DNA of 64,000 bases from Segatella copri (GTDB lineage Bacteria; Bacteroidota; Bacteroidia; Bacteroidales; Bacteroidaceae): NCBI RefSeq assembly GCF_009494395.1, contig NZ_VZCB01000013.1, positions 1 through 64,000 on the forward strand, in the 5' to 3' direction. Position numbers and translations under genes: made by a program. The notes under the pieces are model-generated. The model did no database searches, had not been told where the DNA came from, and was given only the letters and a program-made list of their open reading frames with translations. This document shows positions 8,501-24,277 of the stretch, one piece after another. Position 1 is the first letter of the stretch. Each line of letters begins with the position of its first letter.

Positions 8501-11500
8501 GGACGGAACAGGAGAGTCGTGGGAAAAGAGCTATACCTCATCATCTGTAGATGAAGTACTCGGTTATCTTGCCGACATCAAGGATGGAGGCAAGGTAAAG
8601 GTAGTTACCAAGGGCAATACTACACCAGAGGATTTCACTATTGAGAAGAACAGCGGATGGGAGTTTGAAATCTGCGGTCGTGAGGGTATCTTCGAACCGA
8701 AGATTGCCTACACGTTCGAGGAAACAGATGCCAGGGCATGCACCTTTAACATTCAACCTTGCGTACTTCCTGTAACCGTATATGGCGGTTATCCGGAGTA
8801 TTCAGAGAATCCGAATCCGGAAGATGAAGACCGCGACCCTATCAAATACCGCACCGAGCTGAACGGAAACCTGAACGGTTCAGAACTCAACGAGGGTCTC
8901 TACCATCTGGTCCGCATCGAAGCGGGTGCCAACATCACCATCGACGGCTATGCCTTTACCCATGCATACGCTGCCGGTACTGCCTACATGCCTTATGGTG
9001 GCGGCGTGCTGATAGGAAGCATGGACCAGAGCAGTGAACCAACCACCGTGAAGCTGAAGAATTGTATCTTTGAGAACAATACAGCGACAGATGGCGGTGC
9101 TATCGCTACCATGCCGGATGCCGTGAATGTGAAATTGGAACTGGAAAACTGCGTCATCAATAACAATACGAGCAAGGATCCGCTTAATCCAAGTCCTTCG
9201 GAGCTGCCTTCCATCATCTATCTGAACAAGAGTCAAGGCAGCAACAACTCTCTCACGCTCAACCATGTAAGCATCATCAACAATGAGGGAGTAGCACCAG
9301 ATTACGACCTTGTGAAGAGAACCTCGTATGCTGTAGGAAACAAACTGAACATCAACGGCACATGGAATGGTTCGGAATGCAAGAACAGCATGGATATCAA
9401 CACTCTGGGAAAAGACGGAGCCCAGAACTTCAGCAACCCAACCAATGAAGTGGGTGCCAGAATGAGCGGCAACGTTTATTACGGAGGCTATTCATCCTTC
9501 CGTCCGCTGACCAGTTCTGCAGAGGCTGGCCGCATCATCAACAGCGCCCAAGAAAACAATGCAACCACAACAGCCAAGGACATCACCGGTGAAGACCGCA
9601 ACCTAGGTGGTGTTCCTGACCTGGGTGCATACGAAGCTCTCCTGCCAAAAGCAGGAAAGATTATCTACGTGCGTTCGTACAACCAGGACTATGAAAGCAG
9701 CAACGATGCCAACAAAGACGACAAAGACGGCAACCCGGACTTCAATCTTCTGAAAGAATCACATACCGAATATGACGGAAGCAGCTGGGACAAGGCCATC
9801 ATCGGTAACGCCATGTGTGATAACACAAAGGGTAGAACGGGCAATGACTTCTATGTAACAGACAATGGAAGCTTGCTCAATACAACCATCGAAAACGAGG
9901 AGTATAGTCTGGCTAACGGCAAGTATCGTTCAGAAACTGACTCTTATGGTAATTTCTGGACTAACTCAGGAAATCAGGAGAAGCAGTATCTCTCTGGCTG
10001 GGGATCATATAATAAAATCACCAACAACAGAGACGAACGATACATCAGCGGTCTACAATATGCTGTGGAAAAAGCAGCTGAGTTGAATAAAATAAAAAAA
10101 GACAGCGTTGTGGTGTGGGTAGGTGCAGGTATCTATACCGACTACAAAGGATTCGTTATCAGAGACAACGTGAAGGTTTATGGTGGTTTCCCATACGAAG
10201 GCTATCCTGGAGAAGACGACCGTCATCCGCTGCTGTCACAATACGTGCCGGCACGTAAGGAATACGAAAATCTGGACAAGACCAAGTATGAAACCATTCT
10301 ACAGATCAGAAAGGAATCGCCTGTATACTTCAAAAACGGAGATAAGGAAATGTGGTATCAGGAGGGCAAACCTGGAGATGGCTCTAATTATGACTTTACA
10401 AAAACGTTGATAAACAGCGGGAAAACAGAGCGCCATTATGTACTGTATCAGCCAGACGTATGCCTTCCTACCTGGTCGCCATCGGGTGATGGAAACGCCT
10501 CACGTACCGACGGTAATGCCGTACGCTATAAAGGAACTTTAGAAGACGATAAAAACTACGTGGATTACAAGCATGCCAAATGGGATGGCTTCTCCGTACG
10601 TCATGGTTATATCATCAACTATCCTGGTGCCAACCGTGACGGAGGTGCAGGTATGCGTGTATTCCGAGGAGTAGAACTGGAAAATCTCATCATCGTCAAC
10701 AACTTCAACCATGGCAGTCGCGTACGTGGTGGCGGTTTGTATATGGACGGCGAGAACAGTAAGATTTCGAACAGTTACCTGCTGAGAAACCTGAGTTATG
10801 CCAACAGCAGTGAAAGTTATGGAGGCGGAGCCTATATGATTCAAGGCACCGGCTACAACCTTGTCGTGGCAAACAACCGCTGTTATAACGGAACCTGCCG
10901 TGGCGGAGGTATCTTCCTGGAGAGTGCCAAGTTCTACAACAATACCATCGCCTACAATATGGCGACAAACGGAACCGGCATCTATCACTGGCAGGATGCC
11001 AAAACCGGAGTAGAATCGCAGCTTTCACTCTACAACTGTATCATCTATGATAATTATAACAACGGCAAACAGATTACAGATCAGGTAAACTCAGCTGCAT
11101 CGGGCAAGATGAATCCATCTCACAACTGCTACATGAACAGTAGTGACCTCAGCAGCAAATTCCAGGAAAGCGATGGAAATTTCACTGGCACAGATCTGTC
11201 TTTCCCATTTGAGGACAAGACCTACGAAAATGGAAAAGACGGAGTTTTCCGCTTCCGCAATGCCCGATTAAAGAATAACTTCCGCCTGAACGAGGCTGAT
11301 GGTTTAGCAGGTAACAAATGTCTGAATGGTGGAACCACAAATGTAGGAAATGGAATCATCCTTCCGGAAACCGACATGGACTATACCAACCGAATCAAGG
11401 ACTGCGCCATTGATATCGGTGCATACGAGGCTGACAATACTGCCAATATCGCACCACAGGAAAAGACAAACAGCGCAGGTATTGTAGATTACATTTATTA

Positions 11501-14500
11501 TGTAACCCAAAACGGATGGGGAAACAGAAGTGGAAACAGTCCGGAAAACGCAGCCTGTGCTGACAAACTGCAGGACGTGCTGACTGCTGCGGGCAAGAAA
11601 TTTAATTCAACAAGTCAGAGCAAGGTGTATGTAAAAGTGGCAGGCTATCAGGCTGATGAAACCGGAAAGCGCTTTACTTATCATGCCAATACACTGGCAG
11701 ACCCTAGCGATCCGCAGAGCTATACCTTCCTGATTCCTAACGGAGTATGTCTGATGGGTGGCTACTATGAGGGCGACCAGGAAGGAGGAAAGTTGAAAGA
11801 AGGTACCGCCAATTGGGATAATGATAAGCGCGACTGTATCAGCACATACCAGACGGTATTAAGCGCGAAGACTGAAGTAAAAGAAGGTTCTGCCGTTAAC
11901 CAGGAGGTGAACGGCTACCACACCGTGTGCTTCGGCAAATGGCCTATGGGCGACTATGACGACTACAACACTTCTGCCCTGTCAGACAATACCATCATAG
12001 ATGGCTGTCGCCTGATTGACGGTAACGCAAGCGACAAGTCGGGCTTCAAGAGTATGGGTGGTGCAGCCATTGTGCCAAGAATGGCACATGTACGCAACTG
12101 TGAAATTTCCGACTGTCAGGCAACCCTGGGCGGTGCTCTCATGTTGCTGAAGGGTAGCATCGTAAGCGGTAGTGTCATCGTAAGAAACAAGGCACAGAAA
12201 GGTGGTGCCATCTATGCGCTCCGTTCCAACGATAAGAACGAAGACACCAAGAACTACCATGCCTACGTCATCTCATGCACCATCGCCAGAAACGAAGCAA
12301 ACATCGGTGGCGGAATCTACCAGGAGGAGAACTCCCTGATTGGCGGTAACTCCGTGATATGGGGAAATTCGGCACAGACCGACAACAACATCAGCGGTGA
12401 TGTGAACTATCAGTCTTACGACTATCTGCAGGGACTGGGAGCATATACGGAAAAATTCTATCCATACAACTATTGTTTCGTAGAGAAGATGGCGTTGCCA
12501 GCCAACAGAATGAATACGGAAATGACCAGCGACCTGGACAGTTATTTCAACGACAACAAAATCTTCAAGCCTCGTGCCTATTCACCATTGATTGACAACG
12601 GAGTTTTGGAAGACGACATAACTGCATGGAAGAATTATGGTATCAGCAGCTACGATATTACCGGTAAGGAAAGAAACATGACCAAGCAACAGACAGCAGG
12701 TGCATACACATCTGATCTGCCTGAGTTTGATAATACCAAGCTTCTGAAGCGCCTGTTCGTTTCTCAGACAGGTGGTGAGATTGTAACAGAAGAAGAGAAG
12801 GCAAAGTATTATGGCCGCTCCTTCCTGACTCCTTTCAACAGTCTCGAAGCAGCCCTCGATTACATCAATGAGGCACGAGAAAAGAAAGTGGCTACAGAGG
12901 CTACCCACTTTGAGATTCTGATGACAGGTGGAACCTACAAGCCGAGCAAGATGCGACAGAATAAAGACCTTTCGCCAGAGCAAAACACGATAGACCGCCG
13001 CTTGCAGAGTTTCACCATCCCTGTGAACGTAGATATCTTCGGCAGTTTCTCGGAAAATGACCTGTATTCTTCAACTCCTGTTGATCCTGCTACGGGAAAA
13101 GAAACTGGAGATAAGTTTACAAGCTTTGATGGCAAGACTTTGGTTCCAGATGGAGACATCAAAGGCATCTTGGCAAACCGCAACTCCAACTACATGACCG
13201 ACAACAACAAGAACGGTCTGATAGAGCCATGGGAATTCCAGAATCCTACAATTCTTTCCGGTGACATCAAGGCATCTGAAAAGGAACGTAATGTATATCA
13301 TGTGGTCTACAGCAATGCGGGATCAACTAATACTTCGACTACATCGAACAACGAAGTCGTATTAGACGGTATTACCATCATGAATGGTGAGACCACGACA
13401 AAACTGAAGATAGAAGAAGAAGGAACTAACGAAGTTGCCGAGATTGGTCGTGGAGGCGGTATCTACACCAACCGCGTGAACTATACATTGAACCGTTGCC
13501 GACTGATCAAAAACTCCGGTCTGCATGGCGGAGCTGTCTATGTCAACAATGCAAGTCTGGACATCATCGGCAGTACAATCAGCGGTAACAGTAACGTATC
13601 AGAAAAGGCAAGTCAGGATGAAGTCACCGAACCTGGTAAGGGTGGAGCCATCTATCTCTATCTCACAAAATCGGTGAATGGAAACCTGCATATCGTCAAC
13701 TCGCTCTTAGCCAACAACGATGTGACCTATGGCAAATATACGGGCACACAAAGCTCTCAAGGCGGAGCTATCTATATCCGTAGAGCAAATGATGCTGGCA
13801 GTATGGCTGCGGGCTATCAGGATGCCTACATCGTAAACAGCCTCATCGTGAACAACAAGGCAAAGCAAGATGGAGCCATCCATGTAGAGAACGAGGTGAC
13901 AAACGGTACGATTACACCTATATTATATAATACCGCCATTTGGGGGAATGAATCTACAGATAATAGTGTACTCCTCCAAAGAGAGCACATGCGCAACTGC
14001 GCCTGGGATAAATTACCTGCTTCTACTGCAAAGGATGGTAACATCAAGCTGAGCAAGGAGAACATCGCATCGGATGGTCCACGCTTCACAGCGCCTACAA
14101 CGACAAAGGGTTACGAAGGTTATACACAGGATGCCAAATGGAATCCACAGGCTATCTCTGTGCTTACAGATGCAGGTGACGGAAAGAAGGATGCAGACGA
14201 TACAAACGAGACTGGTAAATATCTGAATTGGTGGAGTATGCACAATAATCGCCTTAAGGAATATGGTTATCCATCTGAGTACATCCGTTCTGCCAGCGGT
14301 TCGGATTACAACAGATACGTAGGTCCGAAAGACGAGAATGGTAATATAGCCAAAAAGCCTATCGACATCGGTATGTATGAATTCCAGTATGTATTCACGT
14401 TTACAGACTTTGAAAAGGTTTATATCGGAATGGAAGAGAAAGGAAATGGCGATGGTAGCAGTTGGGACAACCAAAGTACCGACCTTCGTGGTGCCATCAT

Positions 14501-17500
14501 TGCCATGGCCAACCCATCAGGTAGCACCACACCAGGTTCTACAACCAACAGCAAGAGAAAGGTGTTTGTACGCGGAGGTACCTATTATTCGCCAACCTAC
14601 TCTAGCGGCGATGCCTTCTCTCTCATTGTAAACAAAGCCGACAAAGCTGAATATATAGAATCAATTGAACTTGTGGGTGGTTGTACGGGTACGAAAAATG
14701 CTGACGGTACAGAGGTGCAAGACTTCAGCAAGCCTTCGGTACTCATTGAGAACCCTGCCAAGGCGGGCGAAACCAAAAACTTGCTTAATATCGAAACGAA
14801 TGGTAAGCCGGTAACTATTTCCGGTTTCACATTCCAGAACCAGAGCGGCGTGGGAGTAAATGCGAAGGTTAATTTGTCTACCAATAATGAAGGAAGTCTT
14901 TTAAAGATACACAATAGTGCCTTTAGAAAGAACAAGGGAACCGGTATGGCAGTTGACAATAATGCTGCAACAAACGATAACGAATCCGGTATAAAGATGT
15001 GGAACGTATTGTTTGCTGACGGAGAAGGAAATGGTCTTGAAATAACTAAATCCCAATCAGCAGACATAACAAATGTTACATTTGCCAACAATAAAGGAAG
15101 AGCTATTAAAGGAACAAATAGCGTGTATAATTCCTTGACTTGGAACAATGGAGACAACACCATTAGAGATACCGAACAAAAGAACAAGGATAATTGGGAC
15201 GTTGCTTTCCCTGCAAACACAAAGAATGGAGATGTACTGAACGGTCCTAATTTTGTAGATCCAGAAAATGGCGATTACAGAATTCGACCTAGTCTCAAGC
15301 TACTTGACCAAGGAAACAAAGACAAGCATCTCCAAAATATTAATTTAAGCTCAGAAAAGGACTTGGCTAATAGCCCTCGTCTGATTGGCGACAACATAGA
15401 TATCGGTGCATACGAGTGTGACACGAAGATGATTCAGATTATCTATGTTAAAGAAGGTTCTGCTGTTACAGGAACAGGTGAAAGCTGGGATAACCCTACC
15501 AACGACCTACAAGGCGCCATCAACCTGGCTGAGCTTTATGCCAACAAGAATGAAGGTGAATATGGCTACGTCTTCGTAGACAGGAATATGAAGGCTGATA
15601 ACGTGAACATCAGCATGCCGGGCGTCAAGATGTTTGGTTCGATGCGCGAAGAAAAAAGTTCTAAAACAGGGACAGAAGCTATCGTAAAGGATCTCCTTAC
15701 TCAGAGAAAAGGAATCATTGAGTCTGCCAGTCAATCTACCATCAATGGACTGACACTCAACAACGCAACTACTGATACCAGAATGTGTCTTGTTGATGGT
15801 TTCAAGGTTTCGGGCAACGTCAGCCTCAAGGGCAACAGCATGCTCTCTACCTCTATCCTCGATGCAAATGCAAAGGTATCTGGCGATGCAAGTGGTTGGC
15901 TCTACAACAGTCTGGCATTAGGAACCGTGGAGAATGTGAAGTCTGTCAATGTAACTGCTTCTGGCGCATTACCATCAACAACGGGTAGTGCTGCCAACAG
16001 ATCTACAGTAACCACCAATAATTATGTGAAAGATGATTATTGGAAGTACCAGCTTGACGAGACATCTGGCGACATCAACGCCAATACAGACGCAACCAAA
16101 ACCCAAGGATGCATCGACATGGTGATGCACAACCATGATCTTGCCGGCAACCAACGCATCAGAGCCAACGTAGACAACGGATGTTTCGAGACTTGGTATC
16201 TGACAAACGAGGCAGAAGCAAAGAAGACAGATTACCCTCATGGTAAATCTGTGGTCTATGTCATGACAAAAGACAAGGAGCTGAAACTCGACAATACATT
16301 CTATACAGAGACGAATCCGTTCAGCCCAGGCTTCCTGCTCTTGAAGCACCACGCTGGTTTAAGAGGCAACAACAGTTATGTAAACCTCACCAACTTTGCC
16401 GTGGAAAGAAACCTGAAGACAGGAACCAACTTCTTCTCCATGCCTTTCAAGGCTACCAATATGGAGGTTGAGGGCACAAATAATCCTGCTGATGGTAGCG
16501 TAGTAGCCTACTACTATAATGCTGCAACCCGTGCCAAATACGACTATAAGTTTGACCAAAACGATAGTAAAGCATGGGTAAGAGGTGTGGATAACCAGCG
16601 AAACTTTACCGCAGGTTTCAGAATGGATGCTAATGGCAACAAGACCGTTCGCTTCTATGGAATCAGTTACACGGAGAACGGTAGTCAGTTAGGACAGATT
16701 ATCTTGACGCAGAACAACAACCAGCAACCATGGTCAGACAGTAATGGTGGCGGTTTGAAGTTCACCCACAAGGAGAACATGGGCTGGAACCTCTTCGGTT
16801 CTCCTTATCTCTGCGCCATGAACTATAGCGATATGGAATATGGCAGAGTCATCTACCAATGCGAAGAAAACGGTAGCTACAAGGCTATCAATACGGATGA
16901 CGGTAGCACAACGGATGGCTACATCCCGGCAATGGATGCCGTGTTTACGCAGACTGCCACTCTGGATAATTCTGAAAGCGTGATAGTAGGACATTCGGAA
17001 GCAAGGGCAACAACAGCCTATCAAGCAACCCGAGCCCTCGACATCGCCATCACCCAGAACAGCAGAACAAGCAGAGCGGGCAACGGCACTCCTATAGATG
17101 ACCAACTCCAGTTGAACGCAGTTCCTGCACAGGAGGCGAAATCAGACTTCGACCTGGGAAGTGACGGCGTGAAATGGATAAATAACCAGAATGCCCAGAT
17201 CTATGCTAACCGTAATGGTGGACGCTACTCGCTCCTCTCTTCGGTCAGCATTGAAGCAGAACAGAGCATCGGCGTCAGTCTGCCGGAAACGGGTGAATAC
17301 TCCATCAGCATCCCTGAGGATTGCGATGCCAGCGAATATGAAACCGTATGGCTGAAGGACAAGGAAACTGGTAAGGCGGTAGATCTGAAGGAAGGAAGCT
17401 ATCAGTTCGATGCCACCCAGGCTGGCGAGATGAACAGCCGATTCAGCATCAGCTTCAACCGTATGACAACTGACATGAAGTCAGTCATCACGGTCAGTAC

Positions 17501-17702
17501 CGATGGCAGAGGCATCATTCGCGTGAAGGGTTTGAAGCCTGCCGACTTCATCAGAGTATACGGTACCACGGGAGTTCTTGCTGCCCAAAAGGAGGCTAGA
17601 GCTGAGAATGAGACTCTTCGCACAGCCGTGAACGGTACGGTGGTCGTAGAGGTGACACGAGGCGGCAAACAAGTTGCCGTTAGGAAGATAGCCGTAAGAT
17701 AA
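5559..17702 (+). CDS. giant multi-module parallel beta-helix adhesin with T9SS-like C-terminus (4047 aa)
   Basis: A signal peptide ends near residue 26 (FAQ). About eight modules follow, each opening with a YYV or IYV strand and a G-D-G-x-S-W-x-N-A motif near residues 31, 467, 968, 1367, 1977, 2397, 2952 and 3294. Many close with IDIGAYE. Between these lie GGGIY and NNT/NNN ladder turns typical of right-handed parallel beta-helices (pectate-lyase-like, choice-of-anchor Q type). From about residue 3600 a different beta-rich region follows. The end (GTVVVEVTRGGKQVAVRKI) resembles type A type IX secretion sorting domains. It closes the fimbrial operon, in the position of the T9SS-exported tip protein Mfa5 of P. 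gingivalis, but lacks the von Willebrand domain. A surface or tip adhesin is the likely role; a carbohydrate-active role is possible but no catalytic set is visible. Confidence 0.75.
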   Translation: MRIQHTTYRKIIALLILLSCVNPLFAQDSKTYYVTAEATDGGDGLSWKNAITLTEALRRATAGDEIWVKGYEDITGHIYKAPEGGFVLPSGVAMYGGFAGNETIKNDLPTGRHKYQMKYQTALVGDIATNDKASQQLIIYPENTTRTDNATHVLTLQMGVTPDNTNDGSKPTIVSGFLIAAGNAKGDNSTSDGRGGGIYVVNNSNDNNAGSRYFRISQCNFANNYGMRGGAIYVDNSCTNQQSAISYCSIFNNVAGKRGSSENEGGGMWIDGTATVYNCNINNNTNGGIRLSNTSKIVNCSVIANTVSAADLTTDGASNSNGGGAVYNTVLWHSTALSKQDSRPAFYSCAFPEVEVTNTGTNTDTNGNVWISNENHGIEPAPWFKQSAVTQGYDFSFSSNLKQLYSTAFTFEETSALLNKGKLEYYKNLVVDANLETASTDIMGRTRYQTSSIDIGAYEYARMKAGRIRYVKPQKKGLGDGSSWDNATDDIQWAINNLAENAPGEKGEVWVAAGTYVVKDRILAKDASSPVSLLMKNGISVYGAFKGTEKRRSERIEESKDLKPWGWKQESIIRGSGFTGSNDAIWNNSDEAWNIQNSESYHVVWFAPLPEEKEAFTDEVYLEGFTIEGGTYNGTSAATQYAPGCGAGVYINDPSARMRYCTVRFCNPGMKESGNIKPRGGGIYCKNGQTEGNLVYNCSAYQGGGIYIDEAGFITRSMVTNCSAYQGAGVYLNGDASNPEKAYYQILATSVISNNTSTRNGAVYLDGQGLVINNTIVNNYTNNTLDPADELSSNTGGVYIKEKGLLANNVIWNNSLLRHKSGTSNSASMAQIYAANPSEETVQFYNNAISDVNAAKWTNTYQSGTISINTYYSGKGFVMGTEAPYNTVEAFNEKRGVLTDMKTVNYYWETLTGSRLRNVGISYALLPSSYLYQPKIDLSGKAISSVPSAGAYMADNHDLVFEKNNNKKRLRIYFDRSRELVDGTGESWEKSYTSSSVDEVLGYLADIKDGGKVKVVTKGNTTPEDFTIEKNSGWEFEICGREGIFEPKIAYTFEETDARACTFNIQPCVLPVTVYGGYPEYSENPNPEDEDRDPIKYRTELNGNLNGSELNEGLYHLVRIEAGANITIDGYAFTHAYAAGTAYMPYGGGVLIGSMDQSSEPTTVKLKNCIFENNTATDGGAIATMPDAVNVKLELENCVINNNTSKDPLNPSPSELPSIIYLNKSQGSNNSLTLNHVSIINNEGVAPDYDLVKRTSYAVGNKLNINGTWNGSECKNSMDINTLGKDGAQNFSNPTNEVGARMSGNVYYGGYSSFRPLTSSAEAGRIINSAQENNATTTAKDITGEDRNLGGVPDLGAYEALLPKAGKIIYVRSYNQDYESSNDANKDDKDGNPDFNLLKESHTEYDGSSWDKAIIGNAMCDNTKGRTGNDFYVTDNGSLLNTTIENEEYSLANGKYRSETDSYGNFWTNSGNQEKQYLSGWGSYNKITNNRDERYISGLQYAVEKAAELNKIKKDSVVVWVGAGIYTDYKGFVIRDNVKVYGGFPYEGYPGEDDRHPLLSQYVPARKEYENLDKTKYETILQIRKESPVYFKNGDKEMWYQEGKPGDGSNYDFTKTLINSGKTERHYVLYQPDVCLPTWSPSGDGNASRTDGNAVRYKGTLEDDKNYVDYKHAKWDGFSVRHGYIINYPGANRDGGAGMRVFRGVELENLIIVNNFNHGSRVRGGGLYMDGENSKISNSYLLRNLSYANSSESYGGGAYMIQGTGYNLVVANNRCYNGTCRGGGIFLESAKFYNNTIAYNMATNGTGIYHWQDAKTGVESQLSLYNCIIYDNYNNGKQITDQVNSAASGKMNPSHNCYMNSSDLSSKFQESDGNFTGTDLSFPFEDKTYENGKDGVFRFRNARLKNNFRLNEADGLAGNKCLNGGTTNVGNGIILPETDMDYTNRIKDCAIDIGAYEADNTANIAPQEKTNSAGIVDYIYYVTQNGWGNRSGNSPENAACADKLQDVLTAAGKKFNSTSQSKVYVKVAGYQADETGKRFTYHANTLADPSDPQSYTFLIPNGVCLMGGYYEGDQEGGKLKEGTANWDNDKRDCISTYQTVLSAKTEVKEGSAVNQEVNGYHTVCFGKWPMGDYDDYNTSALSDNTIIDGCRLIDGNASDKSGFKSMGGAAIVPRMAHVRNCEISDCQATLGGALMLLKGSIVSGSVIVRNKAQKGGAIYALRSNDKNEDTKNYHAYVISCTIARNEANIGGGIYQEENSLIGGNSVIWGNSAQTDNNISGDVNYQSYDYLQGLGAYTEKFYPYNYCFVEKMALPANRMNTEMTSDLDSYFNDNKIFKPRAYSPLIDNGVLEDDITAWKNYGISSYDITGKERNMTKQQTAGAYTSDLPEFDNTKLLKRLFVSQTGGEIVTEEEKAKYYGRSFLTPFNSLEAALDYINEAREKKVATEATHFEILMTGGTYKPSKMRQNKDLSPEQNTIDRRLQSFTIPVNVDIFGSFSENDLYSSTPVDPATGKETGDKFTSFDGKTLVPDGDIKGILANRNSNYMTDNNKNGLIEPWEFQNPTILSGDIKASEKERNVYHVVYSNAGSTNTSTTSNNEVVLDGITIMNGETTTKLKIEEEGTNEVAEIGRGGGIYTNRVNYTLNRCRLIKNSGLHGGAVYVNNASLDIIGSTISGNSNVSEKASQDEVTEPGKGGAIYLYLTKSVNGNLHIVNSLLANNDVTYGKYTGTQSSQGGAIYIRRANDAGSMAAGYQDAYIVNSLIVNNKAKQDGAIHVENEVTNGTITPILYNTAIWGNESTDNSVLLQREHMRNCAWDKLPASTAKDGNIKLSKENIASDGPRFTAPTTTKGYEGYTQDAKWNPQAISVLTDAGDGKKDADDTNETGKYLNWWSMHNNRLKEYGYPSEYIRSASGSDYNRYVGPKDENGNIAKKPIDIGMYEFQYVFTFTDFEKVYIGMEEKGNGDGSSWDNQSTDLRGAIIAMANPSGSTTPGSTTNSKRKVFVRGGTYYSPTYSSGDAFSLIVNKADKAEYIESIELVGGCTGTKNADGTEVQDFSKPSVLIENPAKAGETKNLLNIETNGKPVTISGFTFQNQSGVGVNAKVNLSTNNEGSLLKIHNSAFRKNKGTGMAVDNNAATNDNESGIKMWNVLFADGEGNGLEITKSQSADITNVTFANNKGRAIKGTNSVYNSLTWNNGDNTIRDTEQKNKDNWDVAFPANTKNGDVLNGPNFVDPENGDYRIRPSLKLLDQGNKDKHLQNINLSSEKDLANSPRLIGDNIDIGAYECDTKMIQIIYVKEGSAVTGTGESWDNPTNDLQGAINLAELYANKNEGEYGYVFVDRNMKADNVNISMPGVKMFGSMREEKSSKTGTEAIVKDLLTQRKGIIESASQSTINGLTLNNATTDTRMCLVDGFKVSGNVSLKGNSMLSTSILDANAKVSGDASGWLYNSLALGTVENVKSVNVTASGALPSTTGSAANRSTVTTNNYVKDDYWKYQLDETSGDINANTDATKTQGCIDMVMHNHDLAGNQRIRANVDNGCFETWYLTNEAEAKKTDYPHGKSVVYVMTKDKELKLDNTFYTETNPFSPGFLLLKHHAGLRGNNSYVNLTNFAVERNLKTGTNFFSMPFKATNMEVEGTNNPADGSVVAYYYNAATRAKYDYKFDQNDSKAWVRGVDNQRNFTAGFRMDANGNKTVRFYGISYTENGSQLGQIILTQNNNQQPWSDSNGGGLKFTHKENMGWNLFGSPYLCAMNYSDMEYGRVIYQCEENGSYKAINTDDGSTTDGYIPAMDAVFTQTATLDNSESVIVGHSEARATTAYQATRALDIAITQNSRTSRAGNGTPIDDQLQLNAVPAQEAKSDFDLGSDGVKWINNQNAQIYANRNGGRYSLLSSVSIEAEQSIGVSLPETGEYSISIPEDCDASEYETVWLKDKETGKAVDLKEGSYQFDATQAGEMNSRFSISFNRMTTDMKSVITVSTDGRGIIRVKGLKPADFIRVYGTTGVLAAQKEARAENETLRTAVNGTVVVEVTRGGKQVAVRKIAVR

Positions 17703-17851: not shown

Positions 17852-18601
17852 ATGACAGAAAAAGAAATGTACAATCTGATAAATAATCAGAACAATCAGC
17901 AGAGCAATGGCTTTGCATTCAACGAACGAGAGCGCGGATTGAGCGGTGCCTTCCCTGTATTGATGCGCAAGGTTTATACCTGGATGACATTGGCTCTCCT
18001 GATAACCGGTGTTACCGCCTTTGGTGTTGCTGCCAGTCCTACCCTCTTCATGAGTCTTCATAAGATGATGTGGGGATTGATTATCGCAGAACTGGTTCTG
18101 GTCTTCGCCTTGAGCGGCGCCATCAACCGCCTGTCATTGGGTACAGCCACATTGATGTTCATCGGCTACTCGGTACTGAACGGTGCGATGCTCTCATCCA
18201 TCTTCTACGTCTACAGTCCGATGGTCATCGCAAAGGTATTCTTCATCACTGCGGGAACCTTTGGCGTAACGGCTTTCTACGGTTATACCACCAAGAAGGA
18301 CCTGACCTCTATCGGCAAGATCCTCTTCATGGCTCTGATTGGCTTGATTATCGCGACCGTAGTCAACATGTTCCTGAAGAGTCCAGGATTTGATTACATC
18401 CTGAGTTATGTGGGTGTGGCAGTCTTTACGGGTCTGACAGCCTGGGACAGCCAGAAGATCAAGCAGATGCTCCAGACACAATACGACGTAAGTGAAGGAG
18501 CCCAGAAGCTCGCCTTGCTCGGTGCATTGACCCTGTATCTCGACTTCATCAACCTCTTCCTCTATCTGCTCCGCATCTTCGGAGGAAGCAACAAGGATTA
18601 A
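17852..18601 (+). CDS. Bax inhibitor-1/YccA family membrane protein
   Basis: This 249-residue protein has a short polar N-terminus and about seven hydrophobic segments between residues 45 and 245, matching the BI-1 (TMBIM/YccA) fold. Typical features are the early hydrophobic pair after VYTWMTLALLITG, the GxTAFYGYTTKKDLTSIGK segment, and a late D-x-x-N-L-F-L-Y-LLRIFGG motif near the end. Family members act in the cytoplasmic membrane as ion (calcium) leak channels or modulators of membrane-protease FtsH; which applies here is unknown. It has its own promoter (-7 TATCTTTG at 17801-17808) and a terminator at 18627-18671. Its last 56 bp occur again at 18964-19019. Confidence 0.9.
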   Translation: MTEKEMYNLINNQNNQQSNGFAFNERERGLSGAFPVLMRKVYTWMTLALLITGVTAFGVAASPTLFMSLHKMMWGLIIAELVLVFALSGAINRLSLGTATLMFIGYSVLNGAMLSSIFYVYSPMVIAKVFFITAGTFGVTAFYGYTTKKDLTSIGKILFMALIGLIIATVVNMFLKSPGFDYILSYVGVAVFTGLTAWDSQKIKQMLQTQYDVSEGAQKLALLGALTLYLDFINLFLYLLRIFGGSNKD

Positions 18602-18848: not shown

Positions 18849-18968
18849 TTATTTCGTGGCTTTCATCTCGAAGTGCAGTTCACCACCCTGCAAGATTTGC
18901 TGATGGGAAATGCGATAATCACTCCAAGGATTTCCATTCAAGGTGGTAGACTGGATGAGATAATCATC
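18849..18968 (-). pseudogene. GH92 C-terminal relic (about 39 codons)
   Basis: Read on the minus strand, this segment encodes DDYLIQSTTLNGNPW, then ISHQQILQGGELHFEMKATK and a stop. The pattern closely follows the C-terminal end of the GH92 part of the fusion enzyme at 24274-27828 (IQKMSLNDKPF, LSHKDILNGGKLKFQMKK). The DNA is clearly different from that gene, so it derives from another GH92 gene rather than a recent copy. The reading frame stops abruptly where the duplicated BI-1 gene end begins, so the rest of the gene has been lost from this site. Confidence 0.8.
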
Positions 18969-19019
18969 AGCCTCTTCCTCTATCTGCTCCGCATCTTCGG
19001 AGGAAGCAACAAGGACTAA
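18964..19019 (+). repeat. duplicate of the 3' end of the BI-1 gene
   Basis: These 56 bp match 18546-18601 with two differences. They keep the reading frame, the LFLYLLRIFGGSNKD residues and the stop codon. It is followed at once by a strong terminator, which was probably the original end of the BI-1 transcription unit. There is no start codon or upstream part, so it is a non-functional remnant. Confidence 0.9.
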
Positions 19020-19056
19020 AAAGAACCTGTCAGAAACAATCTGAACAGGTTCTTTT
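19019..19056. terminator. bidirectional terminator between convergent units
   Basis: AAAAGAACCTGT pairs perfectly with ACAGGTTCTTTT (12 bp) with T-rich flanks in both directions. It can end transcription from the BI-1 side and from the minus-strand SPFH cassette. Confidence 0.8.
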
Positions 19057-19095
19057 ACGATATATAAATTGATAGATTATCTTAGAACTCCATCT

Positions 19096-20931
19096 TTATG
19101 CACCTTGTTTGTTATAACGTCCGTGCATATCAATCAGAGACGTATAAAAATCGGCACAATTGGTTGTACGAGTTCTACTATATGTCAAAACATTCTGACT
19201 ATCATACGACTGATACTGGAACAAACAAGGCAATCCCGAACTATCTGTAACAATAGGTGCCAAGTTAACGCCAGTATTGGAAACAATAGAAATTTGTCCA
19301 TCCTCTTTCTTAAACATAGCTATCAGACTATACAAAAGATCGTCACGTCGCAACATTGGGATTTCATCCTCTAAAGTATCCCAAACGCCATGCATATAGA
19401 GCACGCGATCAGTCATCGCTATCGCCACATTAATTCTCATTTTTCTCAAAATAGTTTGTGGTTCGCCTGGAGACGATGATCTAGCATCAAAGAAACCATT
19501 AAAGAAATATACCTTACCTTTGGTGACATCTCTCTCTGAAATATGAGCTTGACGCAATGCATTTGAAACAAAATCACCTTGATTAACCAATCCAGCATTA
19601 GGTCCTGCAAACAACTGGCAGAACTTCATATATTCCGCAACAGTAGGTCTTTGCAAGAAACAAGTTAACCTCTCCTGATAATCGGCCATTGTTCGAACAT
19701 TTCTTCGCTCTGTATATCTTCTAGAAAGAATGGTCTCTCGGAAACTCAAGAATGTTCTACTAATCCATATCAACGGTCCAAAAAAGAACAGAGCAATAGT
19801 TGCCAGAAAACGCCACCCACTTGCTATTCCATTAACTTCCCATTGTTTTACTTCCGCTGGCAAAGAAGCGATTTCCTCCTCCGTAGGTTCATGCCATACG
19901 TTCACCCTACCTTCCGAAGCATCATAGAAATATCCCACAACAATATGGCTCTCCTTATATTTTTCTACAGTATCACCTGGAGTAAATCTATCCACTTTCG
20001 CTCCATCAAGCCATCCAGTAAAGCAAAGAATAATAACAGACACAAACCAAACTGCAAAACCAACTGCAAAGCTTTTCAAGCAGACCCAACAAGGCTCCAC
20101 AAAAGTATCTTTTTTCTCCAAACAAGGTTTTTCCGGTTTACTGATGCCCAAGAAGAATTTTTTTCTCTCCGATGGATTCATTAATTTTGCGACACCATCA
20201 TCAGTTATGACCTCGTCATCATGTCCTTTTGGATAGCTACATACATTGGCATAACAACACATACTTTGCTTAAGAATATCATCACAAGAATGAGATTCCA
20301 CGTCTTTGCCTCGCAACTGACTGACAAACTCCAAATTGCGTTCATCAGTTATTAGGACATGCTGCTCAATTTCGTAAAGTTCATCCTCCTCCTGAACAGT
20401 TTGCTTGGCTTGCAACAACAATTGCTCTGGTTCTTTTTTATCGGCAGGGATTGCCTTTCCTTTACCCTTAAATGCACCTTGAAGTAGAAGCAGCTCTAAG
20501 ATAAGATATTTTCTTTTAGGTAAAATTTTTATAGCAGTCTGCAACCACATTTCTATGCGTTCAGCCTCAAGATCGGACAAAAGCACAGGTGAACGATGAG
20601 CAAAAAGAGACAATGCATAATAATAATAAACATCAGGATCACTCGGAGTCAGATCGACTGCCGTCTTAAAATTAAGACTTGCCAACTCATAGTTTTGTAA
20701 AGCTAAATAAACCAAGCCTTTTCCGAACAATGAGTTCACATCACGAGGACTACTCTTTGGATCGGTTTCAAAAGCCTTTCTCAGATTCTCTGCTTGACTT
20801 GCAGAAAATAACAAAGGATTAACCACTTCTGGAACAAACTGATGTTCCGCTCCACATTTAGGACACTTAGCAATGCCTACTGGCAATGGACTTGTGCAGA
20901 CTTTACATCTTTGGATTTTTAACTGTGCCAT
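19096..20931 (-). CDS. zinc-ribbon/TPR protein with two membrane segments
   Basis: This 611-residue protein begins with a zinc ribbon (C9-x2-C12-x10-C23-x2-C26). Helical TPR-like repeats follow around residues 60-130 (including GLVYLALQNYELASLNFKTA). Two hydrophobic segments lie near residues 290-312 and 368-392, enclosing a roughly 60-residue polar loop. The C-terminal 180 residues are soluble and contain no domain I recognise. It is the last gene of a three-gene minus-strand cassette, 14 bp after the membrane-protein gene. The layout recalls the Bacillus YdjG/YdjH/YdjI set, in which a zinc-ribbon membrane protein works with an SPFH protein and PspA. No PspA gene is present here, so the analogy is only structural. 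Confidence 0.65.
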   Translation of the reverse strand: MAQLKIQRCKVCTSPLPVGIAKCPKCGAEHQFVPEVVNPLLFSASQAENLRKAFETDPKSSPRDVNSLFGKGLVYLALQNYELASLNFKTAVDLTPSDPDVYYYYALSLFAHRSPVLLSDLEAERIEMWLQTAIKILPKRKYLILELLLLQGAFKGKGKAIPADKKEPEQLLLQAKQTVQEEDELYEIEQHVLITDERNLEFVSQLRGKDVESHSCDDILKQSMCCYANVCSYPKGHDDEVITDDGVAKLMNPSERKKFFLGISKPEKPCLEKKDTFVEPCWVCLKSFAVGFAVWFVSVIILCFTGWLDGAKVDRFTPGDTVEKYKESHIVVGYFYDASEGRVNVWHEPTEEEIASLPAEVKQWEVNGIASGWRFLATIALFFFGPLIWISRTFLSFRETILSRRYTERRNVRTMADYQERLTCFLQRPTVAEYMKFCQLFAGPNAGLVNQGDFVSNALRQAHISERDVTKGKVYFFNGFFDARSSSPGEPQTILRKMRINVAIAMTDRVLYMHGVWDTLEDEIPMLRRDDLLYSLIAMFKKEDGQISIVSNTGVNLAPIVTDSSGLPCLFQYQSYDSQNVLTYSRTRTTNCADFYTSLIDMHGRYNKQGA

Positions 20932-20945
20932 ATCTTATCTATCGT

Positions 20946-21608
20946 TTAGTTTATGTTAAGTAATCTATTTGCCTTTGAAAGCAAACGAGCACGTTCGTTC
21001 ACCACCTCAGAAGGTATTATAGATTCAGCTTCACGTATTAACTTCTTCCACTCTCTTTCACTGTCGGAAGTCATATGTTGCTCTGCCATTTCTGTCAGTT
21101 CTTTCACCAACATTCTAACATCGTTGGTATTATCTTCTAATTGAATTTGTTGCACATTGTATTCCATGTCATGTCGTCCTACTATACTTGCAACAACCAC
21201 CCAAATCACTGTTAGAGCCAATATTCCAAAAAGATAAAGACGAATCGACATTTCTGGAAATGTTGCTAGTATTTCAGGAAGATCAAAATGAATACAAAGA
21301 ATTTGACGCCCCAGCTCAGTACCACACAAGAAGAAATAAATCATCCATAAAAATGCAGCACCAATATAATACAAGGTACTAATACCTAGGAAGACTTTAA
21401 AATAAGGAGTCTGCTTCGTTATATTCTTTATTTCTGCATGCCCCTTTTGAAGCCATACGAAGAACAAGGCTTCCAAGAAGAAAGTATAGAGCATATTAAT
21501 CCAATAAAACGCCGTAGGGGAATCTGGCATCAAAAGCAGGAATCCCAACAGTGTAACCCCAAATGCGAGCAAAGGAGTTAACCATGAATAAAACGGATTT
21601 TCTTTCAT
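20946..21608 (-). CDS. small integral membrane protein of the SPFH cassette
   Basis: A 220-residue protein if read from MKENPF. An alternative ATG at 21635 adds nine residues and overlaps the upstream gene by 14 bp. The inner start was chosen because it sits just after that gene's stop and gives a more usual N-terminus. Four to five hydrophobic segments cover residues 10-150 (for example LLAFGVTLLGFLLL and LYLFGILALTVIWVVVASIV). A charged helical tail of about 70 residues follows, rich in E and R (EREWKKLIREAESI), possibly a coiled coil on the cytoplasmic side. No family was recognised. Its place between an SPFH protein and a zinc-ribbon membrane protein suggests it is the membrane anchor of a complex. 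Confidence 0.65.
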   Translation of the reverse strand: MKENPFYSWLTPLLAFGVTLLGFLLLMPDSPTAFYWINMLYTFFLEALFFVWLQKGHAEIKNITKQTPYFKVFLGISTLYYIGAAFLWMIYFFLCGTELGRQILCIHFDLPEILATFPEMSIRLYLFGILALTVIWVVVASIVGRHDMEYNVQQIQLEDNTNDVRMLVKELTEMAEQHMTSDSEREWKKLIREAESIIPSEVVNERARLLSKANRLLNIN

Positions 21609-21621
21609 TTTTAAATTAATT

Positions 21622-22872
21622 TTACGGTTGAACAATAGGAGGTACAGGAGGAACAGGTGGTGGAGTTTGAGTGGCAGACGTAAACAACACCGCCAATTCT
21701 GGCAAAGTAGCAGCTGCCACCCATGATGGAAGCCCTGCCTTCCATACCAACGTTTGTTGAGTTAAAAGATTTTGCGATACCAATTGCTGCAAAATAGGCA
21801 AGTCATAAGGACCAGCTTGTTGCTGATTGAGACAAACATATATTTGCATGGACTGTGGGGGTGGAGGTGGAGCCTGAACTCCAGACATAGCACTATGTGC
21901 AACGGTTTCTATTTGACTTCCAAAAACATTACCAATGCCAACCCCCATTCCGAGTCCCATGCTTGCTCCCATTATATTGCCTGCAGTTCCCTCATTACCG
22001 GCAGCAGTTTCCATTACATCCAACTGTCGCTCCTGCTGATAAGAGTATCCTTCACGTTGGCGTTTTCTAGCCAATGCCCGGCTTTCCAAATCCATTGAAC
22101 CTGCCTCAGACTGAGCTTGAAGAATCTGTTGATAGTTGGAATCATCTTCATGCGGATTTATTCCCTCCACATCGAACTTCGTAAGCTCCAAGCCATACTC
22201 CTCAAAATACTCATTAATATGCTTACGGGCATAATCAGAAATATCAAGGAGATAATTATTGACTTCTGTAACGCCAACTCTTTTCTGACTAAAATATTGA
22301 CTAATAACAGAAGTTACTCTTTGAGAGACCGCTGAAGAGAATTCATCTGCAAAGTCTTCCAAATATACATCATGCTCTGTTCCTACATATTCTCTAATAA
22401 AAGCGATAGCATTAGTAATTCGAAATTCATAACTACCAAAAGCACCAACTTTGATTGTCAATCCTTCATCACACAAAGAATAATCACGAATGGTAAGACC
22501 GACACCCCATCCAGCATCATCACCAGCAAAGCGATGTCTTATAGTGCTTACAACATACAAAGAGGTTTTAAACGCAGTCTCCCCACCAAATGGAATATTT
22601 ACTATTTTTTCCAAAAAAGGAATATTATTAGTAGAGAGGGTGTGACCACCTGGCTTCAATAAGTCGGAGTACATTCCTTCCGACATAAAAACCATCTGTT
22701 GTCCCTCTTGAACTGTAACCTTGGCATGAGTGGATAAATTGTCGTAAGGATGTCTGTGAACTAGGCATCCTTTCTCTAGATTTACAAAGACATTATCAAT
22801 GAAACCTTTTCGCTCATCACCTTGTCCATCATAAGTGTTACCTTTAGAACGTAGATTTTTAAATAGATTCAT
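21622..22872 (-). CDS. SPFH-domain protein with C-terminal GYF_2 domain
   Basis: This 416-residue protein has an SPFH/virion-core-protein-like region (about residues 25-250; GGETAFKTSLYVV, FGSYEFRITNAIAFI, DISDYARKHINEYFEEYG). A helical Q/E/R-rich stretch and a glycine/methionine-rich linker (MGASMGLGMGVGIG) follow. After a PPPPP linker comes a GYF_2 (DUF4339) domain at about 340-395 (GPYDLPILQQLVSQ, WKAGLPSWVAA), and the tail is proline-rich. It lacks a clear N-terminal membrane segment, unlike stomatins, and resembles Bacillus YdjI-type proteins. SPFH proteins form oligomeric scaffolds at membranes. It is the first gene of the cassette. The GYF_2 domain probably binds proline-rich partners, perhaps its own tail. 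Confidence 0.8.
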   Translation of the reverse strand: MNLFKNLRSKGNTYDGQGDERKGFIDNVFVNLEKGCLVHRHPYDNLSTHAKVTVQEGQQMVFMSEGMYSDLLKPGGHTLSTNNIPFLEKIVNIPFGGETAFKTSLYVVSTIRHRFAGDDAGWGVGLTIRDYSLCDEGLTIKVGAFGSYEFRITNAIAFIREYVGTEHDVYLEDFADEFSSAVSQRVTSVISQYFSQKRVGVTEVNNYLLDISDYARKHINEYFEEYGLELTKFDVEGINPHEDDSNYQQILQAQSEAGSMDLESRALARKRQREGYSYQQERQLDVMETAAGNEGTAGNIMGASMGLGMGVGIGNVFGSQIETVAHSAMSGVQAPPPPPQSMQIYVCLNQQQAGPYDLPILQQLVSQNLLTQQTLVWKAGLPSWVAAATLPELAVLFTSATQTPPPVPPVPPIVQP

Positions 22873-22922
22873 AAATACAATATTTAGATTGAATAAACTT
22901 TATTATCAATAAGTTTTGGTTG

Positions 22923-22930
22923 CAAAGTAA
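22923..22930 (-). promoter_or_regulatory. candidate -7 element for the SPFH cassette (proximal)
   Basis: On the minus strand TTACTTTG is one base off the TAnnTTTG consensus and lies 50 bp upstream of the SPFH start. Confidence 0.4.
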
Positions 22931-23096
22931 CTATAAGTTATCTTACAACAATGTTCAAGTCGTAAAAAACAAGAAGCTATAACGTAAAAAAGTAGCCAAC
23001 CTTTTTTAATAAGAGCTACAAATAGAGTTAAGATTTTCTTCATACGTTCGTTTATATTATTAAAGGTTTTCAATATCATTATCATTTCTGATATTG

Positions 23097-23227: not shown

Positions 23228-24277
23228 TCACTCCTCCTTTTTGGGAAGGTGAACACAGCGGAAAGCATTAGGAGTACAATGATGGCTTCCCTCAAAGACC
23301 CTTCGGAAAGTGGAGAGCGAATTGAAACCCGATTTCTCAGCTACCTCAACCAAGGAGTGTTGAGTGGTCAGCAAGAGCTCTTCGGCATGTTTGATTCTGA
23401 GATTATTCACATAATCATAGAATGTCAATCCATTTTCCTTATTGAAAAATCTACTGAGATAAGTACGGTTCGTTCCCACAAGCCGTGCCACATCCGACAA
23501 CTTAAGACGTGGATTGAGGAACAGCTTTTCTTCGACAAACAATTTGTTGATAATCGCAGATATGTCTCCCTCCAATACCGGTTTACCTGTATCTCCATCA
23601 CTTTGTGGTGCATCAGGCTCCTGCAACTCATCCAACACAGACTCATGCCTATACAGGAAGTAAGAGACTACCATCCACGCAACCAACGAACAGAGCATAT
23701 AAGCATTGTCGAAATCTACATCAAACATATAGCAGCTCGCCGACCAAACTATGAGAATGATGAAGAAGCAAGTGAGAATGCCCCTGAGCCAATGGAGATT
23801 GACATTTTCCTGATAAGAGAAACGCTCCTTGAGCTGGCGCTGATAACGAGCAATATAGAAGAACATCAGCACATAAGTGACGGTTCCATAAACGGCACCG
23901 CAACCAGCAAGAACATCAAACCAACAAACCTTGCGAGTGAAAGCATACACGGCTAGAGGCAATATAAAGATTGCCTCATGCAAAATGCCTTTGCCCCAAG
24001 TAAGCCATCCTGGCTTCACCAACTCCATCAAGACGAACATGTAGAAAGGTATGATGACCATATCTATAGCATTCATCAGATACCAAATAGTCGATTGCGC
24101 ACCAATGCCATCCACAAACAGCAACAAGTCCTTCAGGCATTCCATATCCAAGATAGCCATCAGACAAGTGATTAATCTAGAAAGCTTTTCCTTGTTTTTT
24201 CGATAGAACATCCAAACCATCATCGAATAGAACATCACGCACAATCCATAAATAAAGAAAGTAATATGCTCTGTCAT
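23228..24277 (-). CDS. membrane-bound AraC-family transcriptional regulator
   Basis: In this 349-residue protein the first 215 residues hold six or seven hydrophobic segments. The last roughly 105 hold a double helix-turn-helix of the AraC family (LKLSDVARLVGTNRTYLSRFF; then SLVEVAEKSGFNSLSTFRRVFE; TPNAFR near the end). Such membrane-AraC proteins are common in Bacteroidales and are thought to sense envelope or sugar-related signals, but ligands are mostly unknown. Its start overlaps the stop of the phosphatase-GH92 gene by 4 bp, so it is probably translated from the same message and may control this cluster. A terminator follows at 23159-23195. Confidence 0.85.
   Translation of the reverse strand: MTEHITFFIYGLCVMFYSMMVWMFYRKNKEKLSRLITCLMAILDMECLKDLLLFVDGIGAQSTIWYLMNAIDMVIIPFYMFVLMELVKPGWLTWGKGILHEAIFILPLAVYAFTRKVCWFDVLAGCGAVYGTVTYVLMFFYIARYQRQLKERFSYQENVNLHWLRGILTCFFIILIVWSASCYMFDVDFDNAYMLCSLVAWMVVSYFLYRHESVLDELQEPDAPQSDGDTGKPVLEGDISAIINKLFVEEKLFLNPRLKLSDVARLVGTNRTYLSRFFNKENGLTFYDYVNNLRIKHAEELLLTTQHSLVEVAEKSGFNSLSTFRRVFEGSHHCTPNAFRCVHLPKKEE

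Follow-up and report, generated by a model that had tools for sequence, protein, structure and literature searches.

How might an SPFH scaffold protein that lacks a membrane anchor be held at a membrane when PspA is absent? Proteins of the SPFH type are common organizers of membranes. In Bacillus subtilis, the SPFH protein YdjI has no membrane anchor, its foci and membrane recruitment require YdjG and YdjH, and PspA requires YdjI for membrane foci (PMC8581546; here and below, statements on published systems follow the accessible portions of the cited papers). Across the literature that we found, membrane retention of such an anchorless YdjI-type protein is described only together with PspA in Bacillus. 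The question is raised by a 64,000-nucleotide stretch of Segatella copri DNA (NCBI: NZ_VZCB01000013.1; hereafter the window), in which three tightly spaced minus-strand open reading frames (ORFs; 22872-19096), termed A, B, and C, encode an SPFH protein and two putative membrane partners. No title or abstract opening about this cassette was found among the top-ranked results for open-access articles. We report that A-B-C is a real, conserved, and exchanged unit that falls outside the PspA-YdjGHI system. As judged from sequence, its products would, on balance, be subunits of one PspA-independent membrane-organizing complex.

Results

The initial annotation of this DNA had described an SPFH-GYF_2 protein, a multi-pass protein, and a zinc-ribbon protein with TPR and two transmembrane (TM) segments. 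All three ORFs are present on the minus strand of a 3.9 Mb genome assembled in 111 contigs, with gaps, calculated from the coordinates, of 13 nt between A and B and 14 nt between B and C. Their features are as follows.

21622..22872, minus strand: gene A, 416 amino acids (aa), protein P0001; SPFH (Band_7_1) scaffold with a C-terminal GYF_2 domain and a polyproline tail
22156..22740, minus strand: SPFH/Band_7_1 domain of A, residues 45-239 (Pfam PF13421, E 1.9e-30; the genome search places the domain identically)
21694..21840, minus strand: GYF_2 domain of A, residues 345-393 (Pfam PF14237, E 1.6e-13)
21625..21669, minus strand: polyproline tail of A, QTPPPVPPVPPIVQP, read from the sequence; candidate GYF_2 ligand
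20946..21608, minus strand: gene B, 220 aa from ATG; multi-pass protein with long C-terminal helices
19096..20931, minus strand: gene C, 611 aa, protein P0003; zinc ribbon, TPR, TM1, strand-bearing loop, TM2, and C-terminal beta domain
20854..20907, minus strand: zinc ribbon of C, Cys9, Cys12, Cys23, and Cys26
20314..20802, minus strand: TPR-type helical part of C, about residues 44-206
20014..20070, minus strand: TM1 of C, residues 288-306 by hydropathy, coinciding with the end of model helix 278-305
19741..19797, minus strand: TM2 of C, residues 379-397 by hydropathy, within model helix 373-427
19099..19644, minus strand: C-terminal domain of C, about residues 430-611; by DSSP of the model, a pair of helices followed by seven strands and one more helix

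When P0003 was searched against 395 genomes of the phylum, every match outside the source genome was partial, covering about 40-120 residues within or close to the TPR part. Conservation was therefore judged from a scan of the genome collection led by an SPFH alignment, for which the best 80 of 265 confirmed stretches were taken, so that rarer contexts may be missing. Clade 1, defined as the window SPFH protein and its 65-77% relatives, comprises 14 database loci (L062-L074 and L084) and is supported as a group at 100/100 (14 rows including P0001, with L074 left out). The order A-B-C is kept in 13/14 of these loci. The lone exception, L074, stops within A at a contig edge; in L073 all three genes are present, with B in two pieces about 520 bp apart. 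Relatives of C within the clade share 31-98% identity with P0003. The proposal that the three genes form one unit conserved in other genomes is thereby borne out, and the separation of the genes that had been named in advance as speaking against it was not seen. A further gene, D, encoding a membrane protein of 371-461 aa, lies between B and C or 3' of C in 9/13 loci. It gave no match in the genomes of the window, L062, L063, L065, or L067, whereas the remaining 10 of the 15 genomes were positive in the same search. Immediately upstream of six clade-1 cassettes (L063, L067, L069-L072) is a gene for a TPR-TM-helix-turn-helix (HTH) protein, the HTH of which was below the Pfam cut-off in the two that were scanned, whereas the gene upstream of the window cassette encodes an AraC-type regulator (HTH_18, 72 bits), so control probably differs.

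The association extends beyond clade 1. A partner rule was scored at 79/81 SPFH loci (80 genome loci and one viral contig), L107 and L109 being dropped because neither gave an unbroken SPFH frame of the length expected. Among downstream genes in the same orientation, a 2-5TM gene occurs together with an N-terminal zinc-ribbon gene in 35 loci, a zinc-ribbon gene only in 18, a TM gene only in 17, and neither in 9. The rule undercounts partners, since it misses C-terminal zinc ribbons and antisense ORFs interrupt some runs. By comparison, the same loci supplied 323 control genes, each 6 kb or more away; 149 of them have no downstream gene on the same strand. A zinc-ribbon gene was scored for none of the 323, a TM gene for 15, and both for none. 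Band_7_1 was matched by 80/80 aligned SPFH proteins, P0001 included (E 0.001), and GYF_2 by 57/80. A tree was built from 78/80 of these rows, leaving out L074 (incomplete) and L116 (over-extended frame). The label clade 2, used below, denotes a gene arrangement; as a true clade it was rejected (2 changes, 0% of bootstrap trees).

By hhalign comparison, B is homologous to the membrane partners of both other cassette types. It matched the clade-2 partner at 97.9% (E 3.2e-13) and the Bacillota-type four-transmembrane (4TM) partner at 97.4% (E 1.3e-11, 195 columns), versus under 1% for five other families from these loci; the Bacillota-type set held 15/19 rows so labelled in the tree and includes one spirochaete, one Lentisphaeria, and one viral contig. 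Bacillota-type operons (L101, L129, L136, and others) have the gene order of the window, namely an SPFH protein with multiple zinc ribbons, the 4TM homolog of B, and a CxxC membrane protein, and their SPFH protein belongs to the same Pfam family as A. They differ at the SPFH C-terminus, where tandem zinc ribbons stand in place of the GYF_2 and tail of A. In 13/15 of these loci the second gene after SPFH encodes a predicted membrane protein with a CxxC motif, but only the zinc-ribbon stretch (28 columns, 80.6%), which is C-terminal there, is common to this third gene and C. The clade-2 cassettes of Prevotella/Bacteroidaceae (L077, L088, and others) share with the window an SPFH-GYF_2 protein with a polyproline tail, a ZnR-TPR protein homologous to the N-terminal, zinc-ribbon/TPR part of C (hhalign 99.4%), and the helical membrane protein homologous to B. 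Their C counterpart is short, some of them adjoin Abi_2 genes, and most have two additional upstream genes, for a 1TM protein and a YidD-domain protein. The latter (PF01809, E 5.5e-11 in L046, at L046:7695-8108) is encoded immediately 5' of SPFH.

No PspA (PF04012) was matched in the S. copri genome by a search that matched 9/14 control genomes, so that the remark in the initial annotation that PspA is lacking is true of the entire genome. Among 42 genomes with the cassette or its relatives, mostly titled as metagenome-assembled genomes and lacking completeness figures, PspA exceeded the cut-off in one (Clostridium mobile), and three weak matches fell below it. With PspA over the cut-off in only 1/42 genomes, the cassette does not depend on PspA. 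The domain content also departs from the Bacillus system. YdjG has two zinc ribbons, an NTF2-like domain, and one TM segment, and YdjH has a TPM phosphatase domain (PMC11237479). A scan for the TPM domain, run without YdjH as a positive control, found none in the three cassette proteins at E up to 1, and C combines one zinc ribbon, TPR, and two TM segments, an NTF2-like fold not having been searched for separately. The two systems have in common an anchorless SPFH protein, integral membrane partners encoded alongside it, and zinc-ribbon domains (PMC8581546, PMC11237479). Unlike the B. subtilis system, the window has no PspA and no TPM domain that we could find, adds TPR, carries GYF_2 in place of a zinc ribbon at the SPFH C-terminus, and places the SPFH gene first where the B. 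subtilis operon has it last. The likeness to the ydjGHI gene order claimed at the outset is thus owed to the SPFH family; B and C are unlike YdjH and YdjG, and the order differs, with SPFH first and the zinc ribbon last. Sigma-W controls the B. subtilis system, and this control is not applicable to the window cassette. By analogy, the cassette most likely resembles the YdjI system as a recruited SPFH scaffold.

Both domains of A scored above their cut-offs, with 106.5 bits for Band_7_1 (Pfam cut-off 24) and 50.7 bits for GYF_2 (cut-off 25.8). Hydropathy gave no membrane segment, and there was no Pfam match to a zinc ribbon at E up to 1, GYF_2 occupying the C-terminus instead. Matches of A to MafB and EndoS were below the Pfam cut-off and were set aside. 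A second Band_7_1 match in the same genome, at 21.2 bits, was under the cut-off, and four of 14 control genomes, B. subtilis among them, matched the family.

GYF domains bind proline-rich peptides. By a strict custom pattern applied with near-copies not collapsed, a proline-rich tail was counted in 49/52 GYF-type scaffolds (52/80 proteins) versus 0/20 tandem-zinc-ribbon scaffolds. The three GYF-type scaffolds without a counted tail contain PPDLP, PPPLP, or PPPVP, and 51/52 have PP in the linker ahead of the GYF domain. Eight of the 80 scaffolds fall in neither class; five of these have a tail and, by eye, end in a GYF-like domain. The presence of a polyproline tail on GYF-type scaffolds suggests self-cross-linking, as far as sequence patterns can indicate. 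The GYF family profile of A also matches the solved AgmX domain (Protein DataBank 7z3c, E 4.1e-9). The likeness to the Myxococcus gliding protein AgmX/GltJ is one of GYF domain sequence (7z3c and the GltJ model), and the GltJ model match of A, at 22.5 bits, is far below its cut-off of 450. To our knowledge, AgmX/GltJ has no SPFH domain. Flotillin-NfeD operons likewise pair an SPFH scaffold with a small membrane partner (PMC13086221); they differ in that A has no membrane segment and B and C gave no NfeD match at E up to 1.

B has no Pfam family above the cut-off. An alternative start, TTG at 21635, would make it overlap A. Hydropathy identified three membrane segments in B and four in most of its clade-1 relatives; the AlphaFold2 model (mean pLDDT, predicted local distance difference test, 75.6) contains a fourth membrane-length helix at 33-58 and a long helix at 122-178. 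Matches of B to G-protein-coupled receptor families were below the Pfam cut-off and were discarded.

In C, the four cysteines of the zinc ribbon are invariant across 14/14 aligned family members; the Pfam match is weak (E 0.6). The TPR match, at 26.7 bits, lies slightly below the cut-off of 26.8, and each of the 14/14 members is matched by some Pfam TPR family when E up to 0.5 is allowed. With a 14-sequence alignment as input, AlphaFold2 modeled C at a mean pLDDT of 83.1. Compared with solved TPRs using VIA-align, the N-terminal part of the model reached Z up to 13.4 (root-mean-square deviation 3.2, 148 aligned), barely above the level of about 13 under which Z between helical bundles may reflect shared arrangement only. 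Foldseek with the same model returned nothing at E 0.001 or better (best 2.2e-3). A small strand-containing region lies between the two membrane helices in the model, and the modeled C-terminal domain may be PH-like, by strand order alone. Relative to the nearest named match, S. copri strain Indica, the ratios of nonsynonymous to synonymous substitution rates (dN/dS) were 0.10 for A, 0.22 for B, and 0.11 for C. These values of 0.10-0.22 rest on few changes (synonymous plus nonsynonymous: A 16+6, B 6+5, C 32+14) and suggest that the cassette genes are still under purifying selection.

The cassette is rare and appears to have moved. Full-length C was found in 2/299 genomes of the genus, our own and G066, with two further matches being partial; 131/299 of these genomes, both carriers included, are at least 90% complete. 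Among 60 relatives, one other genome gave a match, a short one of TPR type only. Strain Indica is 97% identical in DNA over window positions 18964-23008. In the close relative G069, six proteins of which from the arg region are 98-99.5% identical to those of the window, the site is empty, with the AraC and BI-1 genes adjacent, 286 bp apart, and no cassette between them. Two features mark the cassette's downstream edge.

18966..19019, plus strand: repeat of the BI-1 gene's final 54 bp, immediately ahead of the cassette (gene-end copy at 18548-18601)
19021..19056, no strand assigned: terminator-like hairpin between the convergent cassette and BI-1 genes, read from the sequence

From the second BI-1 end onward the DNA is 97% identical to that of strain Indica, versus 76% for BI-1 itself. 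The simplest reading is a probable junction at which incoming DNA recombined with the native gene; alternatively, the end may have been duplicated locally, or G069 may have lost the cassette. The lowest-GC (guanine plus cytosine) 3.7-kb stretch of the window lies over the cassette (38.6% vs 45.2%). At the other edge, the AraC-type regulator (23228-24277; six membrane segments predicted in its 99% relative) is 52% identical to the G069 gene at the same site. Set against the 98-99.5% identity of the arg-region proteins, this indicates that the AraC segment was probably replaced as well. Strain Indica carries a 436-aa ORF (L062:7543-8853) that separates the AraC gene from the cassette; only its first codons are retained in the window, at about 23009-23077, and the ORF may have been mostly lost in the window or gained in Indica. 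Nearby genes, named by reading, are SusC/SusD-, GH92-, and GH28-like. Also in the window is a single 4047-aa ORF (5559-17702) in which, by reading, many beta-helix-like blocks recur; its product is probably a giant surface protein. C had no match among plasmids and none among viral contigs. The SPFH alignment found one viral locus, of Bacillota type (L142), and A gave two weak partial matches to phages, both in faecal phage records without annotation (23.0% and 21.6% identity). Overall, the cassette would be an accessory trait in Segatella/Prevotella, exchanged as a block.

A role in defense, also raised in the initial annotation, found no support in clade 1. None of the three proteins was matched by any PADLOC-DB 2.0.0 family (E up to 1), and 10 genes selected from around clade-1 cassettes also drew no match (E up to 0.001). 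A Pfam family (E 1e-8) was assigned to 8/10 of these flanking genes, mostly for metabolic, transport, and surface proteins, including pyruvate phosphate dikinase, cytochrome bd subunit II, chorismate synthase, a phosphate transporter, and prolyl oligopeptidase; two had no family. The idea retains a foothold, as a possibility, in distant relatives with Abi_2 or HerA neighbors. Divergent Abi_2 genes lie 2.66-2.74 kb upstream of SPFH in L079, L085, and L092, with no other Abi_2 match in the 80 genome loci. We claim no significance for this spacing, because the position was noticed post hoc, the L085 and L092 SPFH proteins are near-identical, and only 11/15 clade-2 loci hold at least 2.9 kb of upstream DNA. 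In two Prevotella-group loci of the same genus (L059:1771-8030 and L060:1371-7766), a HerA/FtsK-type ATPase (DUF87, E 1.6e-11 in L059), an acidic repeat protein, and SPFH, multi-pass, and zinc-ribbon proteins are encoded in one run adjoining an AbiD/Abi_2-like gene, making this run a candidate defense-like SPFH system. The SLATT match of B, at 15.9 bits, is below the Pfam cut-off of 26.3. Across 43 B-type proteins, the matches listed include, all sub-threshold, SLATT_1 in at least four (best E 0.0038) and SLATT_5 in at least one (E 0.0015), and the L054 protein matched PADLOC RTasSLATT at E 0.0045. Distant relatives of the cassette may have a role in conflict.

Discussion

Of the functions put forward in the initial annotation, a membrane-organizing complex remains the best reading of the predicted proteins. 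A, as an anchorless YdjI-type SPFH protein with no membrane segment, would have to be recruited to the membrane. Band 7 proteins oligomerize (PMC3581485), and A would assemble via its SPFH domain. The integral membrane proteins B and C would hold these assemblies at the inner face of the cytoplasmic membrane, with the zinc ribbon and TPR of C exposed on the cytoplasmic side for docking. Since A has a polyproline-binding GYF_2 domain as well as a polyproline tail, we propose that its scaffolds could be cross-linked through the two; tandem zinc ribbons hold the same C-terminal place in the Bacillota relatives. The resulting patch would organize, stiffen, or protect the membrane without PspA or, alternatively, may sense membrane state via the loop of C between TM1 and TM2.

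Several observations weigh against such a complex or parts of it. Rarity at the level of the genus argues against a core role, and, since D is missing, the unit in the window may be a reduced one. Nine of the 79 scored loci have neither partner by the rule (L073 does have both, and L074 is incomplete). The two homologs of B, that of clade 2 and the 4TM protein of Bacillota, matched each other at only 65% in hhalign. The clade-2 1TM protein matched at 64% with full-length C and at 6% with the C-terminal domain alone, which suggests a split or fused gene pair involving the rest of C. Only receptor-type helical bundles matched the B model, and these matches were rejected as generic helix bundles. 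The PH-like assignment faces a C-terminal domain that has no Pfam match among the families listed and no solved relative by sequence, and the 6% obtained with this domain alone counts against it as well. The missing completeness figures of the genomes searched for PspA also count here.

Among other explanations, we regard membrane-protein quality control as unlikely, if the strongest contender: the SPFH assembly would enclose a membrane protease or its substrates in the manner of HflKC-FtsH, and the TPR/zinc-ribbon protein would deliver clients. TPR and zinc ribbons are usual docking modules, and structure comparison gives C a TPR-like fold. HflK and HflC of Escherichia coli regulate FtsH (PMC13086221). 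In the cassette, A, B, C, and D show no protease or ATPase family above the cut-off, with FtsH itself not searched for, and the 10 chosen flanking genes include one protease, the prolyl oligopeptidase of L063, which lies beyond the regulator gene (a similar gene, by reading, precedes L067). A has no membrane segment, unlike HflK/C, which have one. An anti-phage or abortive-infection module that responds to membrane damage during infection seems somewhat less likely again. It would fit the patchy presence, low GC, and probable recombination junction, the Abi_2 genes upstream of SPFH (L079, L085, and L092) and near the HerA-type variant (L059/L060), and the sub-threshold SLATT and RTasSLATT matches. 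Set against these are the lack of PADLOC matches for A, B, C, and the 10 clade-1 flanking genes, the mostly metabolic, transport, and surface functions of those genes, the below-cut-off SLATT score of B, and a viral record that amounts to one Bacillota-type relative, two weak phage matches of A, and none of C in viral contigs.

Two further possibilities appear very improbable. Were the cassette a true PspA-YdjGHI partner module whose PspA was lost or borrowed, it would account for the Band_7_1 family common to A and a B. subtilis protein, and for membrane and zinc-ribbon proteins accompanying SPFH as in that species (PMC11237479); the absence of PspA from its own genome, the single genome over the cut-off among 42, and B and C domains unlike those of YdjH and YdjG nearly refute this. 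It is equally hard to see the cassette as a non-functional passenger of a recombined segment beside glycan-utilization genes. Its rarity, its SusC/SusD- and GH92-like neighbors, and its presence, which varies between near relatives jointly with the adjoining segment, are what a passenger would show, but the frames are intact, dN/dS has been 0.10-0.22 since the split from strain Indica, and the order is kept in other Bacteroidales amid different neighbors.

Conclusions

The preferred reading thus remains a PspA-independent membrane-organizing complex formed by A, B, and C. More broadly, the combination of a Band_7_1 SPFH protein, an unnamed 4TM family, and a zinc-ribbon membrane protein may represent an ancient PspA-independent membrane-organizing machine common to Bacteroidota, Bacillota, and at least one spirochaete, with scaffolds joined by GYF_2-polyproline contacts or tandem zinc ribbons, and exchanged among gut Prevotellaceae as an accessory trait, a proposal that we consider plausible and just short of probable. 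In this context, the pairing of GYF_2 with a polyproline tail offers a concrete candidate rule for assembly. A recurring PspA-free cassette with a conserved, unnamed membrane partner would provide a system of three genes amenable to testing in a heterologous host, along with near relatives that have or lack the cassette.

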